The notes under the pieces: model-generated | What the model was told of the DNA's origin: nothing | What the model saw: the letters and a program-made list of their open reading frames with translations, nothing else | Database searches by the model: none | In this document: positions 30,800 to 43,763 of the stretch, in pieces | How the letters are laid out: each line of letters opens with the position of its first letter | How positions within the stretch are numbered: position 1 is the first letter of the stretch | Origin: Candidatus Adlerbacteria bacterium | GTDB taxonomy: Bacteria; Patescibacteriota; Minisyncoccia; Phycocordibacterales; SBAW01 | DNA: 43,763 bases | Direction of reading: 5' to 3' | Assembly: GCA_903884345.1 (NCBI GenBank) | Contig: CAISEE010000045.1 | Coordinates: 1 to 43,763, forward strand | Position numbers and translations under genes: made by a program

Positions 30800-31843
30800 T
30801 TACTTAACGAGTGAGAACTTCCCTTCCTTGCTGCGTTTGAAGTATTTCTGATTTTGGAGGTTCACGACGATGGTGCCCGGCTTCACGTGGCGCTCTTTGA
30901 GGACCTTCTCGATGATCTCGTCTTTGGTGAGCGCGCCGTGCTTGCGCAGGATCTCGCGGATGACGTCGCGGACGACGCCCGAGGTGTAGCCCCACTCCTT
31001 GAGCGCGTACATACCGCGGCCGACGAGGACGAAACGGTCATCTTTGATGAGCTCGTTGTGGGTGGTGGCGACGTGTGCAACGCGGCTGAACATCTTCTCG
31101 ATGAGCTCGGCTACCTCGCGGAAGTGCAAAGGCGATCCGTGCTTCTTAACGGCGAGGTATGCGTAGTCGCGCACGCCCTTGGTCTTGACGTTTGGCGACG
31201 CTGCGTGACCCCATTCGCCGAGCGGGTTCTTGCCGATTGACTTCGAGATCGAGAGCCAGCGCTTGAGGACCTCTTCGTTTTGGTATTTGTTGTTGATGGT
31301 CTCGAGCTCTTTGAGGAAGCGGTCCACCATCTCGCCCTCGGGGATGAGGTCTTCGTCAGAGAGGTTGGTGTAGAGGGTCTTGAGTGCGCCCTCGACTTTG
31401 TCGGCCAACTCGTGGTCGAGAAACCAGCTGCGGTGCATGTCGTCGTCTTCTTTGCGGTACTTGAACGGATCGCCGAGTACCAAAAGGAAGTGGATGTGAT
31501 TCTGCATCGACTGCTCCTTCGTGATGAAATTGAGGAGGTCGTGTTCGGTGACGATACCGCCGAGGGTGTCGATGACGCGCTCGAGTTCTTCGAAGGCGGT
31601 CTCTGCCTCGACATAGGCCGGAAGCTTCTTCAGAGATGCAAGGGCATGATTCTCGATCTGGCGAACGCGCTCGCGAGTAATGCCGTAGCGCTGGCCGATC
31701 GCCTCAAGAGTGACACGGTCCGGGCTGGTACCCAAGCCAAAGCGTGCCTCGAGGACGACGCGCGAGCGCTCGGGAAGACCCGTCAAAAGTTTCTTGACGA
31801 TGTTCTTCGGTTTGAAGCCCGTTTTATCGATTGTTTGTGTCAT
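30800..31843 (-). CDS. Sigma-region-4 plus HARE-HTH transcription regulator
   Basis: The 347-residue protein has an N-terminal sigma-70 region 4 (GLPERSRVVLEARFGLG, then LEAIGQRYGITRERVRQIEN). A long middle and a HARE-HTH/winged-helix C-terminus (YLAVKKHGSPLHFREVAELI, REILRKHGALTKDEIIEKVL) follow. Sigma regions 2 and 3 are missing, so it is not a standalone sigma factor. HARE-HTH occurs in the RNA polymerase delta subunit. It may tune polymerase or recognise -35 elements. The ATG at 31843 is chosen over an upstream frame that overlaps leuS. Confidence 0.85.
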   Translation of the reverse strand: MTQTIDKTGFKPKNIVKKLLTGLPERSRVVLEARFGLGTSPDRVTLEAIGQRYGITRERVRQIENHALASLKKLPAYVEAETAFEELERVIDTLGGIVTEHDLLNFITKEQSMQNHIHFLLVLGDPFKYRKEDDDMHRSWFLDHELADKVEGALKTLYTNLSDEDLIPEGEMVDRFLKELETINNKYQNEEVLKRWLSISKSIGKNPLGEWGHAASPNVKTKGVRDYAYLAVKKHGSPLHFREVAELIEKMFSRVAHVATTHNELIKDDRFVLVGRGMYALKEWGYTSGVVRDVIREILRKHGALTKDEIIEKVLKERHVKPGTIVVNLQNQKYFKRSKEGKFSLVK

Positions 31844-31881
31844 AGTGGTGCAATGCACATTAGCATGGATTACTTTTATGG

Positions 31882-34269
31882 TCAAATTTTGTCCACGACG
31901 AAGTTAATAATTTTACCCGCAATATAAAGCGCCCGGGATTCGGTCCCTTCTGCCAACCACTTTGCTACCAAAGGGTTTTCTCGCGCCTGCTGCAGCGCGT
32001 CTGCCTCCGAAATGTCGGTTGGGAGCACCAAGGTGGCACGTACTTTACCATTAATCTGAACCGGGACGGTCTGTGTGTCGGACACGAGTTTGGCAGGGTC
32101 AAAGGTAGGCCAGGTTGAGGTGTGGATTGAGCCGCTGTGTCCTACTGTTGCCCACAATTCTTCAGTCAGGTGCGGGGCGAAGGGGGCAAGAATCTGCAGA
32201 AAGGCCGAAAACTGATTCTTGCCGACGCCCTCTTTCTCGAAGGCATTAAGAAGAATCATCATCTGGCTGATGGCCGTATTGAATTTGAATGCCAGGATAT
32301 CCTCCCCCACTTTCTTGATGGTGGCGTGCAGTATTGGTTCGACGGCGGCGCTATCTTCCTGTGCTACCGATGCAGATAGGCGGAAGACACGCTCGATGAA
32401 GCGACGCGCGCCGATCATGGCGTTAGTATTCCAGGCGATGGCGTTCTCGAAGGGGCCCATAAACATCTCGTAGACGCGGAGCGTGTCGGCACCATACACC
32501 TCGATGATGTCGTCGGGGTTGATGATGTTGCCGAAGCGCTTACTCATCTTGCGCCCGTCCTCGGCAATAATCAGGCCGACGGACTGGAGTTTGGCGAACG
32601 GCTCGGTGGTCGAGACGACGCCAATGTCGAAGAGGAATTTGTGCCAGAAGCGTGCGTAGATGAGGTGGCGCGTCGCATGCTCGGCCCCGCCGACGTACAT
32701 GTCCACAGGTGCCCAGTACTTCTCGCGCTCGGGGCTAACCAACGCAGAATCATTTTTGGGATCCATAAAGCGCAGGTAGTACCACGATGACCCCGCCCAC
32801 TGCGGCATCGTGTTGGTTTCGCGCTTGGCTGGGCCGCCACAGGTCGGGCAGGTCGTGTTGACCCACTCTGAAATGGTGGCCAGAGGGGACTCCCCCGTGC
32901 CGCTGGGCTCGTAGGACTCGACGTCAGGCAACAGAACCGGCAACTGCGATTCGGGCACCGCAACGGCACCGCATTTTGAGCAATGCACAATCGGAATCGG
33001 CTCACCCCAGTACCGCTGGCGTGAGAACACCCAGTCTTTGAGCCGGTAGGTCTTGGTGAGCTTTCCGCCGACAAATGCGGTAATCTTCGTTTTTGCTTCC
33101 TCTGACTCGAGGCCGTCGAATGGTGCCGAGTTGATGAGCGTGCCCGAGTCGATGTACGGCATGGTAGCGTCTGCTGAACCAATGACCGGCTTGATTGCGA
33201 TTCCAAATTTTGTCGCGAACGCAAAGTCGCGCTCGTCGTGTGCGGGGACGGCCATGATGGCGCCGGTACCGTAGCCTGCGAGCACGTAGTCGGCGACGTA
33301 CACGGGAATCTCCTGTTTGGTTGCAGGATTGATTGCAGAGACGCCTTCCAGTTTGACGCCGGTCTTCTCTTTGGTGTCGTTGGTGCGGTCGATTTCGGTC
33401 TTTTGTGCGGCTTCGTGTTGGTATGCCGCGACGTCAGCCCAGTTGGTGATAGAACTGCGCAACGTCGAAAGCAGCGCGTGTTCGGGTGCAAGCACGACGT
33501 AGGTCGCCCCAAAGAGTGTGTCGGGGCGCGTGGTGAAGACTTTTATTTTGTCGTCGCCCGCGGTGAGCGCGAACTCTATTTCGGCCCCCTCGGAGCGGCC
33601 GATCCAGTTTCGTTGGAGTTCTTTGATGTGCTCGGGCCACGCTAGTGCGTCGAGGTCTTCGAGCATGCGGCCGGCGTAGTCGGTGATTTTGAGCACCCAC
33701 TGCGGGAGAATCTTCTTCTCGACTTGGGTGCCGCAGCGCTCACAGGCTGTGTCCTCGAGGTCTTCGTTCGAGAGACCAGTCTTGCACGAGGGGCACCAGT
33801 TGATTGGCTCTTTGGACTGGTAGGCCAGACCTTTTTTAAACAATTGCAAAAAAATCCACTGCGTCCATTTGTAGAACGCCGGGTCGGTGGTGTCGACTTC
33901 GCGACTCCAGTCGTGATCAAAGCCGATATTGAACAGCTGCTCTTTAAAGCGCGCGATGTTTTTGGTGACCGCCACACGCGGATGAATTTTATTTTTGAGC
34001 GCGTAGTTTTCGGCGGGCAGACCAAACGCATCCCATCCCATGGGGTGGAGCACCGAGTGCCCCTGCATGCGCATGTGACGCGAGTAGACGTCGGTTGCGA
34101 TGTATCCCTTGGGGTGACCGACGTGGAGCCCTTCGCCCGAAGGGTACGGGAACATGTCGAGCACGTAACACTTGGGCTTTGCCGAATCTTCAACGGTTTG
34201 GTACACATCGTCGACAGCCCACTTCTTCTGCCACTTCCCTTCAATTTTAGTGTGATCGTAGTGTTCCAT
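31882..34269 (-). CDS. leuS: Leucyl-tRNA synthetase
   Basis: The 795-residue class I enzyme has HVGH at residues 49-52 (GLHVGHPKGYIATD) and the CP1 editing domain (TTRPDTLFGATYV, GYGTGAIMAVPAHDERD). It has a zinc-type cysteine knuckle CPSC...CERC, catalytic KMSKRFGN and the C-terminal anticodon domain. It is somewhat shorter than E. coli LeuRS but complete. It is followed by the sigma/HARE gene. Confidence 0.98.
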   Translation of the reverse strand: MEHYDHTKIEGKWQKKWAVDDVYQTVEDSAKPKCYVLDMFPYPSGEGLHVGHPKGYIATDVYSRHMRMQGHSVLHPMGWDAFGLPAENYALKNKIHPRVAVTKNIARFKEQLFNIGFDHDWSREVDTTDPAFYKWTQWIFLQLFKKGLAYQSKEPINWCPSCKTGLSNEDLEDTACERCGTQVEKKILPQWVLKITDYAGRMLEDLDALAWPEHIKELQRNWIGRSEGAEIEFALTAGDDKIKVFTTRPDTLFGATYVVLAPEHALLSTLRSSITNWADVAAYQHEAAQKTEIDRTNDTKEKTGVKLEGVSAINPATKQEIPVYVADYVLAGYGTGAIMAVPAHDERDFAFATKFGIAIKPVIGSADATMPYIDSGTLINSAPFDGLESEEAKTKITAFVGGKLTKTYRLKDWVFSRQRYWGEPIPIVHCSKCGAVAVPESQLPVLLPDVESYEPSGTGESPLATISEWVNTTCPTCGGPAKRETNTMPQWAGSSWYYLRFMDPKNDSALVSPEREKYWAPVDMYVGGAEHATRHLIYARFWHKFLFDIGVVSTTEPFAKLQSVGLIIAEDGRKMSKRFGNIINPDDIIEVYGADTLRVYEMFMGPFENAIAWNTNAMIGARRFIERVFRLSASVAQEDSAAVEPILHATIKKVGEDILAFKFNTAISQMMILLNAFEKEGVGKNQFSAFLQILAPFAPHLTEELWATVGHSGSIHTSTWPTFDPAKLVSDTQTVPVQINGKVRATLVLPTDISEADALQQARENPLVAKWLAEGTESRALYIAGKIINFVVDKI

Positions 34270-40640: not shown

Positions 40641-41573
40641 TTATGCCGCCATGTGTGCGGGTGGCGCAGGTGGCGATGGGAACATACCGACAGGCTGCAT
40701 GTTCAACACGACAGGCGGCAGCGGTGGTTCGGCCGGCGCTGCCGGTGCCAACGGGCGCATTGGCGCTGGTCGCGGCACAGGCGGCGGGATGGGAGTCGGT
40801 GGCATCGATGGGGAGGCCTTCATCGGCGCAAACACCGCCGACTCGGTGCTGATGGTTGGTTTGGGTTGGAGAATCGGCATTGCTGTTGGCTCAATTATCT
40901 GCTGGCGCGGGGTGAGTGTGGGGGCGGGCTTCATGGTCGGTGCCAATTCTTGACCCATAAAGTTTGGCTGCACGTAGGGTTTGCGCATGGTCTGCTCTTG
41001 CAGGTTAACCGACGGCGGGGGGATCTTCCCTACCAAGTAGGCTTCGGCACCGCTCGCAACCTCTACTTTTTTGTCGCGCATCGTAAAGACGAGCACCGTC
41101 CAAATGAGCATGAACCCAAGCATCCAAAAGCCATAGAAGATGCCGAGTTGTTGGAGCGGAAGCGCCGGCTGCAAAATATGGACGGCAAAGAGCGCAAACC
41201 ACGTGCCGCCGACCAGGCCCTCGAAGACGCTTGCCATCGTGCTGCCCGGGCTTCGTGCCATAAGCGACAGCAGCACCATGAGTCCAATGAGCGCGCATTT
41301 AAATAGGTAGATGTTCGATGCCGCAATACTGTCCTGCTGTAGGTACATAACCCCAGTGATGCCAGCCGCCGAGGCGAACACCAAAAAGACGCCGACCATG
41401 AGGACGCGCCGGATCGCGCCGTTGAAGCGCTGCTCGTCGGGGCTCACCACGCGGTCGCGCATTGTCATGATGTAGGCCACGAGCGTGAGCGTCTCGGCAC
41501 CCACGCCAAGCGCCATCCCCAACTGTTGGGCGCAGTAGCAGATGAGGTTGAGCAACGCGAAAGAAAAGACCAT
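40641..41573 (-). CDS. Multi-pass membrane protein with proline-rich C-terminal tail
   Basis: The 310-residue protein has four to five membrane segments (FSFALLNLICYCAQQLGMAL, VLMVGVFLVFASAAGITGVM, ALIGLMVLLSLMA, FWMLGFMLIWTVLVF). A long Pro/Ala/Met-rich cytoplasmic tail (SMPPTPIPPPVPRPAPMRPL) then ends at TAA 40641-40643. In the same frame beyond this stop, 39 further codons are open (40524-40640) with the same style (PAPIFPPPPRPVPPPTPEIP, ...RTVPRPPQP) and a TAA at 40521. The visible stop is therefore probably a nonsense change, a sequencing error or a read-through site. TACAAT lies six bases before the ATG. Confidence 0.72.
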   Translation of the reverse strand: MVFSFALLNLICYCAQQLGMALGVGAETLTLVAYIMTMRDRVVSPDEQRFNGAIRRVLMVGVFLVFASAAGITGVMYLQQDSIAASNIYLFKCALIGLMVLLSLMARSPGSTMASVFEGLVGGTWFALFAVHILQPALPLQQLGIFYGFWMLGFMLIWTVLVFTMRDKKVEVASGAEAYLVGKIPPPSVNLQEQTMRKPYVQPNFMGQELAPTMKPAPTLTPRQQIIEPTAMPILQPKPTISTESAVFAPMKASPSMPPTPIPPPVPRPAPMRPLAPAAPAEPPLPPVVLNMQPVGMFPSPPAPPAHMAA

Positions 41574-41579
41574 ATAAAA

Positions 41580-41585
41580 ATTGTA
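41580..41585 (-). promoter_or_regulatory. Candidate -10 box of the proline-rich membrane protein gene
   Basis: TACAAT on the minus strand, six bases before the ATG at 41573. Confidence 0.45.
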
Positions 41586-41608
41586 GCACATGCAAACGGG
41601 AGTGGTGT

Positions 41609-41656
41609 CTATAAAAATGGAAAAGTCGGTGCACGCAATTTTTGCGATACACCGAC
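41609..41656 (-). terminator. Terminator of the cold-shock-type gene
   Basis: GTCGGTG (41625-41631) pairs with CACCGAC (41650-41656), with an inner CGCAA/TTGCG stem. The minus strand continues TTTTCCATTTTTAT. Confidence 0.85.
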
Positions 41657-41672
41657 CGTTGTGACCAAAAAG

Positions 41673-42032
41673 TTAGACCCCGAAGAACTTGCTGACGCGA
41701 CGTGCGATTTTGCTGAGTGGCGCCTCCGTCGTGACGCTCGCCGCTGTGGCTTGCGCCGGAATCGGCGTGGGTTCTTCGCTGAGGAACACCGTCCCCCACG
41801 ACGTACGGTATTCGCCGTCACGTTTGGGATTGGGTTCGATGTGGAACTTGACCCAGGCTCCCGCGACGATGGACGCTCTTTGTCCGAAGTCCGGGCAATT
41901 GTTCGCGTGGATGAGAATGTCGCCCCGCAGGATGATTCCTTGTGGTGAAAGGCTGGTCAGACCGACCCAGCCAAACCCTTTCGTAGGGTCAAATTTGGCG
42001 ATTTGACCAACGAAATCAACGTCTCCGACCAT
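41673..42032 (-). CDS. Cold-shock-domain-like protein
   Basis: The protein has 119 residues. Residues about 8-70 resemble a CSD/OB fold: GQIAKFDPTKGFGWVGL (compare the KGFGF motif), GDILIHANN and AGAWVKFHIEPNPK. RNP aromatic residues are partly kept (FGWVGL, ILIHA). The tail is Ala/Pro-rich with a basic end (KIARRVSKFF). It probably binds single-stranded nucleic acid. GGAGAG six bases before the ATG and its own promoter and terminator make it a separate unit. Confidence 0.75.
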   Translation of the reverse strand: MVGDVDFVGQIAKFDPTKGFGWVGLTSLSPQGIILRGDILIHANNCPDFGQRASIVAGAWVKFHIEPNPKRDGEYRTSWGTVFLSEEPTPIPAQATAASVTTEAPLSKIARRVSKFFGV

Positions 42033-42067
42033 GTTGCACTCTCCAACGATGTAACAAACCTAGCGCA

Positions 42068-42096
42068 ATCATAGCACGGTATGGTCGGATTGTAAA
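42068..42096 (-). promoter_or_regulatory. Promoter of the cold-shock-type gene
   Basis: TTTACA, 17 bases, TATGAT on the minus strand, with a predicted leader of about 30 bases that contains the SD. Confidence 0.7.
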
Positions 42097-42147
42097 GCTA
42101 TTTGCTGCGTCAATACAATACCAATCGGCACGTTCCCGAATATGAGA

Positions 42148-42179
42148 AAAGGGCGAACCAAATGAATGGTCCGCCCTTT
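42148..42179 (-). terminator. Terminator downstream of the tandem repeat
   Basis: AAAGGGCG and CGCCCTTT, extended by ACCA/TGGT after a mismatch, form a hairpin. The minus strand then reads TCTCAT, so the U-run is short. It closes the transcript of the lipoprotein gene. Confidence 0.65.
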
Positions 42180-42195
42180 ATCGACCAAAGTCGTT

Positions 42196-42305
42196 AGCAC
42201 AGTAGCACATAAGCACAGTATCCTTTCGCACAGTAGTCTTCAGCACAGTAGCCCGGTAGCACAGTAGTCTTTAGCGTAGTAGCCCAAAAGTCGGTAGCGC
42301 GGTAG
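42196..42305. repeat. Tandem array of AGCACAGTAG-like units
   Basis: Seven units of AGCACAGTAG or close variants begin at about 42196, 42212, 42227, 42242, 42258, 42273 and 42296, so the first six are spaced 15-16 bases apart. The last two units are the most degenerate. The array lies between the lipoprotein stop and a terminator, that is, in its 3' untranslated region. Confidence 0.85.
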
Positions 42306-42309
42306 CCGT

Positions 42310-43065
42310 TTATTCAATTGCCGGCGAGATGGTGACGCTGGTGAACGCATGCGCTTGGCGTGAGGTGTCGCGCGGCGCAGGCGGTTCGTGTGACCACCGT
42401 ACCGGGCCTTGGCCAGAGTATGGTGCTACGTAGATGACTTCGGTGGTCAATTGACTGTTCTTACGCTCGCCGCCCGGATAGATCACCTTCGGCAACGGCG
42501 GCAGCGCGACGTACGGTGTTAACTCGTAAAGCGAACTCTGTTCGGTGATGGCCGGTTTGGAAGCGGCCGCGGCGGCGGGAGGAACAGCAGGAGTCGCGAT
42601 GGGGGCAGCAGATTGCGCCGCTGGCGCAGGAGCCGGAGGCGCCGGTGCTTTGGCGGCAGATGTCGGTGCTGGCTTGGGAGCCGTGCCGGCCTTGGGCGGG
42701 CCCGAGTCCCAAATGATGAAGCTGTTGCCGCTGTTGGCGGCGTCGGCCTCATGTTTGGGTGTAGCAACGCGAGGCGCGGCCGGTCGATGTTTGGCGACCG
42801 TCGCCGGTGCCTTGGTCGAAACCGGTCTCCTGATGTGTGTCGGCAGCGGCGCTTTCTTCGCCACGGTGGCCGATACGATTGGTTGCGGAGTCGCACGCAC
42901 AGCGGGTGCCTGCGGTTGTGCCGGCACAGCCGGATGGTCCACAAGTTGCACCTGTGCCGCCCACGTGTGTGCGGTGGCGTCAGGTGTTGGCGTGCTGCTG
43001 CATCCGACGACGAAGAACAGCAGAAGAAGAGGCAGTACTGATAGTACCGCGTGTATGCGTCGCAT
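42310..43065 (-). CDS. Proline/alanine-rich lipoprotein
   Basis: The protein has 251 residues. The signal peptide ends in lipobox VVGC (MRRIHAVLSVLPLLLLFFVV then GC). A long Ala/Pro/Lys-rich stretch (about residues 40-175, for example APKPAPTSAAKAPAPPAPAP) looks like a wall-spanning linker. The C-terminal part (LYELTPYVALPPLPKVIYPG, TTEVIYVAPYSGQGPVRW) may be a small domain. No family is recognised. AAGGAG six bases before the ATG fixes the start and excludes a longer frame. It overlaps the upstream secreted-protein gene by 86 bases. Confidence 0.75.
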   Translation of the reverse strand: MRRIHAVLSVLPLLLLFFVVGCSSTPTPDATAHTWAAQVQLVDHPAVPAQPQAPAVRATPQPIVSATVAKKAPLPTHIRRPVSTKAPATVAKHRPAAPRVATPKHEADAANSGNSFIIWDSGPPKAGTAPKPAPTSAAKAPAPPAPAPAAQSAAPIATPAVPPAAAAASKPAITEQSSLYELTPYVALPPLPKVIYPGGERKNSQLTTEVIYVAPYSGQGPVRWSHEPPAPRDTSRQAHAFTSVTISPAIE

Positions 43066-43471
43066 CGTGATCTCCTTTCGCGTTCTTCGGTTCAGCGGGC
43101 GTCGGCAGCGTTGTCGTGACCGTGATTTCGTACCACGGCTGCATCGCCACCTTCCAGGACCGGATGACCCCGATCTGGTAGTGTTGTCCGACACCGCCCG
43201 ACAACTGGTAGTTGGCCGGATAGATGGTGACGGTCATGCCGCCGAGACTAGCCGTCATCGGCTTGTGCGTATCCACGTGCGAAAAGCACGCGTGCCCGAA
43301 CTTGCCGTCGTACTCGAAGTACAAGACGGCCGCGAGCTTGGTCGGACTCATTTTGCAGTCCTCGTGAGCCAACACCGAGTACGGCCGAAGATGTTCGGCC
43401 TTTGCCGGCGCGGTGCCGATTGCAGACACTGCAATCACAGCTCCCGCAGCTAACAATGTATTTTTCAACAT
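42980..43471 (-). CDS. Secreted protein of unknown function
   Basis: The 163-residue protein has a Sec signal peptide (MLKNTLLAAGAVIAVSAIGT, APAKA before Glu26). The mature part has two cysteines (HEDCKMS and HACFSH) that may form a disulfide, and a beta-rich stretch (MTVTIYPANYQLSGG, WYEITVTTTLP). No family is recognised. GGAGA six bases before the ATG supports the start. The last 29 residues are read within the start of the lipoprotein gene. In another frame a TGA lies shortly before that gene's SD, so a small indel may have removed the original stop. Confidence 0.68.
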   Translation of the reverse strand: MLKNTLLAAGAVIAVSAIGTAPAKAEHLRPYSVLAHEDCKMSPTKLAAVLYFEYDGKFGHACFSHVDTHKPMTASLGGMTVTIYPANYQLSGGVGQHYQIGVIRSWKVAMQPWYEITVTTTLPTPAEPKNAKGDHDATHTRGTISTASSSAVLRRRMQQHANT

Positions 43472-43630
43472 CCGTGTTCTCCAGTTGGGTTTCTTGCAGT
43501 CACACCACGTGCCGCAAGCAGTCTGTTTTCTCCATTCTGGAGAATGATAGGAACCGTATATAAAAGGACGGCTATCTTGACCATACCAACTTCTTTACAG
43601 CCTGTCTAGTAGTCGTTATTCAAATGAACA
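43472..43630. other. Intergenic region upstream of the secreted protein gene
   Basis: No gene seen. It contains inverted repeats around 43529-43545 (TCTCCA/TGGAGA and CATTCT/AGAATG, nested) and an AT-rich TATATA at about 43557 that could be the -10 region of the secreted protein gene. Confidence 0.35.
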
Positions 43631-43653
43631 ACCTCGCAGCAAGCTGACGAGGT
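43631..43653 (-). terminator. Possible weak terminator of the right-edge gene
   Basis: ACCTCG/CGAGGT 6-bp stem just after the stop of the partial gene; only a short T-rich tract follows on the minus strand. Confidence 0.35.
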
Positions 43654-43654
43654 A

Positions 43655-43763
43655 TCAAAACAAGACAGGCTGATCTGCGTGCAATTTGATGTACTCCTTG
43701 TCTTTGCCTTGCGACTTGACGTATTCGAGCACCGCTCGTTCTGAGCCAGAGCGGCCGACAGTA
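43655..43763 (-). CDS. 3' end of an unrecognised gene at the window edge
   Basis: An open frame enters from the right edge and gives 35 residues (for example SGSERAVLEYVKSQGKDKEY and ending HADQPVLF) before a TGA. It is charged and helix-like. A short hairpin follows. Nothing more can be said without the upstream sequence. Confidence 0.5.
   Translation of the reverse strand, partial: TVGRSGSERAVLEYVKSQGKDKEYIKLHADQPVLF

Follow-up and report, generated by a model that had tools for sequence, protein, structure and literature searches.

Genes and features at the locus

The window, i.e., the whole stretch of DNA that was analysed, comprises an entire contig of 43,763 bases and, about 1.45 kb before the contig ends, carries a tandem array of short units in non-coding DNA between two open reading frames (ORFs) of the minus strand. 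ORF calling places a lipoprotein-like ORF of 251 amino acids (aa) at 42310-43065 (minus strand), with the array on its 3' side; it contains the segment VVGC, which we take to be a lipobox-like motif. No Pfam or NCBIfam match was found for this ORF, a relative is absent from 34 other genomes of the genus and none was detected by peptide patterns in genome contigs or phages. Over about 85 bases its start is overlapped, in a different frame, by a 163-aa ORF with a signal-peptide-like beginning (42980-43471, minus strand). Both are exported-looking orphans (for the first 141 residues of the 163-aa ORF a relative is absent from 296 other genomes of the order), and they may truly overlap, or the sequence may contain a frame error. 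Beyond the array lies a 119-aa ORF at 41673-42032 (minus strand), whose start codon is 163 bases away from the array. It has no relative in 34 genomes of the genus and one weak match among 396 other genomes of the order (31% identity, E 2e-4). This only recognisable relative is the N-terminal part of a 477-aa ORF in another genome of the order (locus L131, 382-1815, minus strand), in which a long remainder without a Pfam match is fused to the 119-aa-like start; the relative itself does not match a Pfam family either. The 163-aa and the 119-aa ORFs have no relatives in viral contigs, and the flanking ORFs matched no Pfam family (for three of them, with the threshold set at E 10). As the neighbouring ORFs are nearly without relatives, the site is not recognisable in related genomes; such a near-absence is expected in a fast-changing stretch.

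The array ends two bases from the reverse-strand stop codon of the lipoprotein-like ORF (42310-42312), and the earlier note had correctly placed it beside this stop. The terminator that was named as its other border corresponds to a terminator-like hairpin only (42148-42179, minus strand), which was recognised from the sequence and by folding. Its arms at 42148-42160 and 42167-42179 are 13 bp long with one mismatch and enclose a 6-base loop, and a weak T tract follows the stem on the minus strand; the hairpin was not listed by a consensus terminator scan. The strip between the lipoprotein-like stop and this hairpin measures roughly 130 bases. Further away in the window, a 361-aa ORF (30800-31885, minus strand) possesses sigma-70 region-4-like residues (27-87) and weakly RNA-polymerase-delta-like residues (240-304), all of these domain matches being below curated cut-offs.

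Period and unit structure of the array

The tandem array reported in the earlier note is real and located at approximately 42189-42309, but its anatomy differs from the 15-16-base units described there. Scanning lags 3-69 by autocorrelation, the self-match of the array was found to reach a maximum z of 7.5, compared to at most 4.8 for any lag in 2000 dinucleotide shuffles. Values of z > 2.5 occur only at lags 8, 15, 23, 31, 38, 46, 54 and 69, which form a series with a step of about 7.7 bp; its member near 61 is absent. The basic period of the array is about 7.7 bp; the spacing of 15-16 bases is the double of it, and the strong units do sit at this distance. TRF scored the array with 111 (period 46), 96 (period 31), 69 (period 15) and 48 (period 8), while outside the array no row of the window exceeds 53.

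Based on TRF, autocorrelation and our own segmentation, which was verified against the sequence to tile the interval without remainder, 14 units of 7-8 bases and one partial unit cover 42195-42308 (plus strand), instead of the seven units counted before. The 8-base units have a consensus of approximately TAGCACAG and the 7-mers of approximately TAGTCTT; on the minus strand, i.e., in the mRNA, the units read CTGTGCTA-like. The chain starts with TAGCACAG, TAGCACAT, AAGCACAG, TATCCTT, TCGCACAG, TAGTCTT, CAGCACAG and TAGCCCGG and continues with TAGCACAG, TAGTCTT, TAGCGTAG, TAGCCCAA, AAGTCGG, TAGCGCGG and the partial unit TAGCCG. What had been regarded as spacers between cores turned out to be weaker units themselves (e.g., TAGTCTT, TAGCCCGG, TAGCCCAA), and the previously proposed 10-base core encompasses most of one unit and the start of the next.

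TRF, autocorrelation and block alignment furthermore revealed that a higher-order block of 46 bp is present twice, at 42189-42234 and 42235-42280 (plus strand), each copy consisting of six units. The two blocks differ at 11 of 46 positions (76% identity), and wear of the units is strongest next to the lipoprotein stop. One-sided Fisher tests on the differences between the two blocks were performed with eight overlapping definitions of the core. The differences avoid the core in four of the eight definitions (p 0.0016, 0.0043, 0.0085 and 0.0085), and the remaining four gave p values of 0.079, 0.081, 0.081 and 0.87. With p ranging from 0.0016 to 0.87 by definition, the earlier view of a core conserved against drift is not established. 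As the outcome varies with the core definition and as homogenisation between units would result in the same pattern as selection on the core, the comparison of the blocks at most suggests that the core is held against drift.

Coding potential and folding of the array

It had been stated that the array does not look coding, and in agreement no open frame spans it. A coding repeat was ruled out, as a spanning open frame is absent and all three minus-strand frames contain stops. That the array is instead a worn coding repeat, derived from a former C-terminal part of the lipoprotein or from a small protein, is very improbable: past the stop the frame continues without interruption for 12 codons, and YCA recurs every 15 bp in one minus frame, but periods of 8, 31 and 46 are not divisible by three and break the frame.

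Both strands of the array alone fold worse than shuffles (z +2.1 and +2.2). A longer stretch that includes the terminator-like hairpin folds with z -2.1, a value matched by 7 of 200 shuffles. A structured RNA was ruled out, as the array alone folds less than shuffles and the value of the longer stretch includes the hairpin. No Rfam match was found within 41500-43763 at E up to 1.

Occurrence in the own genome and in other genomes

The own genome has a size of 887 kb, is 100% complete and is a draft of 56 contigs; its size at this completeness suggests a Patescibacteria-like organism. The exact core AGCACAGTAG occurs three times in it, always in the array. Allowing one mismatch, 20 matches were found in the genome, five of them in the array, compared to 46 for the reversed-pattern control; the genome as a whole is thus not enriched for the core. 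A second cluster, the search for which had been proposed as a check, was found neither with the exact nor with the one-mismatch core.

The array was likewise sought in relatives, and it was found in none of 296 other genomes of the order, where no match is longer than 28 bases (best E 0.0033), nor in the genus genomes outside the own one: of 35 genus genomes, the own one included, the TAGCNNNGTAGCNNNGTAG pattern is present in the own genome alone, once and at the array. Including the own genome, 67 of 297 genomes of the order match at E up to 1, the matches in the others being short, 28 bases or fewer. A search of 60 genomes gave three with a match: the own genome and two others, which share 28 and 24 bases with the coding part and not with the array.

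A sample of the own genome (20 stretches and the window; 303,912 bases, about 30% of the genome) and 334,579 bases from 20 of the 34 genus relatives were scanned with TRF. The window array is the only non-coding array with a TRF score of at least 80 in both samples; three further arrays at this threshold (two in the own genome, one in a relative) are all contained in frames of 164 aa or more without a stop. Such non-coding arrays are therefore not routine in this genus, which counts against reading the window array as a minisatellite.

A pattern search in unrelated organisms yielded 49 genome loci, compared to about 37 expected by chance according to our own arithmetic at 50% GC. At least three similar cores with other spacers are present at 14 of these 49 genome loci and at 6 of 11 viral loci, and their occurrence in unrelated bacteria and in viral contigs fits a repeated independent origin. 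The single Patescibacteria locus among the 49 (L066) has two cores only. Regular arrays of 16 bp and 15 bp with GCACAGTAG cores were observed at L050 (from 7754 onwards) and L086 (from 7 onwards), the hosts being a Pirellulaceae genome and a viral contig, and their spacers are unlike those of the window. In the literature searched no paper on this array was found, and the repeat string itself appeared in none.

A solitary unit-like site and possible regulatory roles

A weight matrix was built from six strong units and used to scan the window on both strands. The top-scoring site outside the array is the solitary unit-like site TAGCACGGTAT at 42072-42082 (plus strand). It overlaps the extended -10 element of a predicted sigma-70-like promoter of the 119-aa ORF (42068-42096, minus strand), which was detected by a consensus scan with 10 of 12 positions matching and consists of TTTACA, a 17-base spacer, TATGAT and the extended -10 TG. 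On this basis, clustered DNA sites upstream of the 119-aa gene, the array included, could be bound by a regulator with a preference for TAGCAC(A/G)GTA; one site would lie on the -10 element and the array, about 100-240 bp upstream, would provide auxiliary or titrating sites. At the density of the own genome 0.007 sites as good as TAGCACGGTAT are expected in the 162-bp spacer, its score is reached by 41 of 3000 mononucleotide shuffles of that spacer, and the distance of 15-16 bp between strong units corresponds to about 1.5 helical turns. However, the overlap with the promoter is a post hoc observation, and as a consensus match the promoter does not exceed chance, since the region contains five promoter-like sites compared to 2.9 (sd 1.7) in shuffles. 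The own genome has 13 comparable sites in 303,912 bases (array excluded) and the relatives have 21 in 334,579, so that the density is not above that of the relatives, which counts against a regulatory reading; all 12 sites in the 20 own stretches score at least as high as the TAGCACGGTAT site. Moreover, the genome contains 11 copies of TAGCRCNGTA (three in the array, one at 42072 and seven elsewhere) and 30 of its reversed control; the seven copies elsewhere are distributed over six places, each inside a stop-free frame of 123 aa or more. No regulator was identified and a terminator-like hairpin lies between array and promoter, and taken together we regard such an operator as unlikely.

The transcript could alternatively be the active form. 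Here, the array would offer about fourteen single-stranded sites of 7-8 bases in the lipoprotein mRNA, and a small RNA or cold-shock-type protein bound there would modulate the stability or the termination of this mRNA. A role of this kind is consistent with the array RNA folding less than shuffles, but weak folding is what direct repeats of a non-self-complementary unit produce, and the core search finds no second array in the mRNAs of the genome. The next gene may itself be cold-shock-like: the KGFGWV and ILIH segments of the 119-aa ORF presumably resemble RNP motifs, and the ORF is perhaps a divergent cold-shock domain. This nature is, however, unproven. A search of the whole genome with PF00313 missed the 119-aa ORF at E up to 1 and found another gene, the clear cold-shock gene of the genome, which is located on another contig (C53), and a comparison of the ORF with Pfam yielded nothing at E up to 10. 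In the PDB, cold-shock chains (E 0.52-1.2) ranked behind three toxin repeat chains (E 0.11-0.21), none of these matches being significant, and the AlphaFold model computed from the single sequence to check for a five-stranded OB fold has a pLDDT of 37. According to work cited by MacGregor (2015, PMC4679880), CspB can bind heptamer repeats with one protein per unit, and the unit length of the array would suit such binding. Even so, an RNA platform is improbable. Both ideas can be combined into a multi-site operator or RNA platform that controls a divergent cold-shock-like gene as one element for two genes, in which the solitary unit would sit on the promoter and the about fourteen upstream units would constitute the 3' untranslated strip of the preceding gene; this appears quite unlikely. 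Should the array and the promoter unit have a regulatory function, the 3' end of one gene and the promoter of the next would be linked through a single element, in a very small genome. A near-unit, CGGCACAGTAG, was also observed close to the true cold-shock gene, past the terminator-like hairpin of that gene and before the next gene, and is treated as a chance occurrence.

Comparison with known repeat systems

Plasmid iterons are direct repeats with near-regular spacing and units of about 20 bp. The array shares the near-regularly spaced direct repeats, but its units are of 7-8 bp and no initiator gene was recognised beside it, as the flanking ORFs match no Pfam family; an iteron-like DNA site, one of the suggestions made previously, is thus unsupported. 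The STRR heptamer arrays of cyanobacteria are also composed of short tandem units in intergenic DNA, but they recur at many sites of a genome, whereas the array described here was found once.

According to MacGregor (2015, PMC4679880), the TAACTGA heptamers of Beggiatoaceae form about 169 sets per genome, have an exact unit and in most cases immediately precede start codons, and cold-shock proteins are among the candidate binders. They are intergenic direct repeats of about 7 bases that are sometimes split by related units, in which they resemble the array. In contrast, the array is single, worn and positioned after a stop codon: one cluster exists in 887 kb, and the next start codon is 163 bases away rather than a few. 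Many prokaryotic satellites sit in genes and encode amino-acid repeats, as stated by Subirana and Messeguer (2019, PMC6749651). With the prokaryotic minisatellites treated there the array has in common short tandem units, a non-coding site, a low number per genome and an explanation by slippage and duplication, while it differs from the satellites in genes in its non-coding nature, its heavy wear and its mixture of 7- and 8-base units. Head-to-tail copies beyond chance, as in minisatellites, are present (TRF score 111; z 7.5 vs. 4.8).

Origin of the array

Most likely the array is an ordinary repeat that arose by slippage. More specifically, it is probably a species-level, non-coding minisatellite that originated by slippage and duplication and has no sequence-specific function. 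A 7-8-bp unit (approximately TAGCACAG) may have been multiplied through replication slippage, a six-unit block of 46 bp would then have been duplicated, and point changes would afterwards have worn the copies, most visibly beside the lipoprotein stop. The array would today form a loosely folded stretch of the 3' untranslated strip in the mRNA of the lipoprotein-like ORF; slippage as its source, transcription of the strip and neutrality are what we infer. Of the origins considered in the earlier note, slippage fits best, although it appears to be old rather than recent because the two blocks are only 76% alike. Against neutrality stand the avoidance of the core in four of eight definitions and the solitary unit on the predicted promoter. 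An assembly artefact, i.e., collapsed or misjoined repeats, could be suspected in a draft of 56 contigs with the array this close to a contig end, but adjacent units differ, so that reads should place them, and the flanking ORFs are open, which makes such an error highly unlikely. If the minisatellite is neutral, it is of little significance, being one more bacterial minisatellite and at most a strain marker.

Stronger tandem arrays of the own genome were observed at L091 (3196-3290, 30 bp) and L104 (5990-6111, 21/42 bp); they lie inside stop-free frames and probably represent protein repeats.
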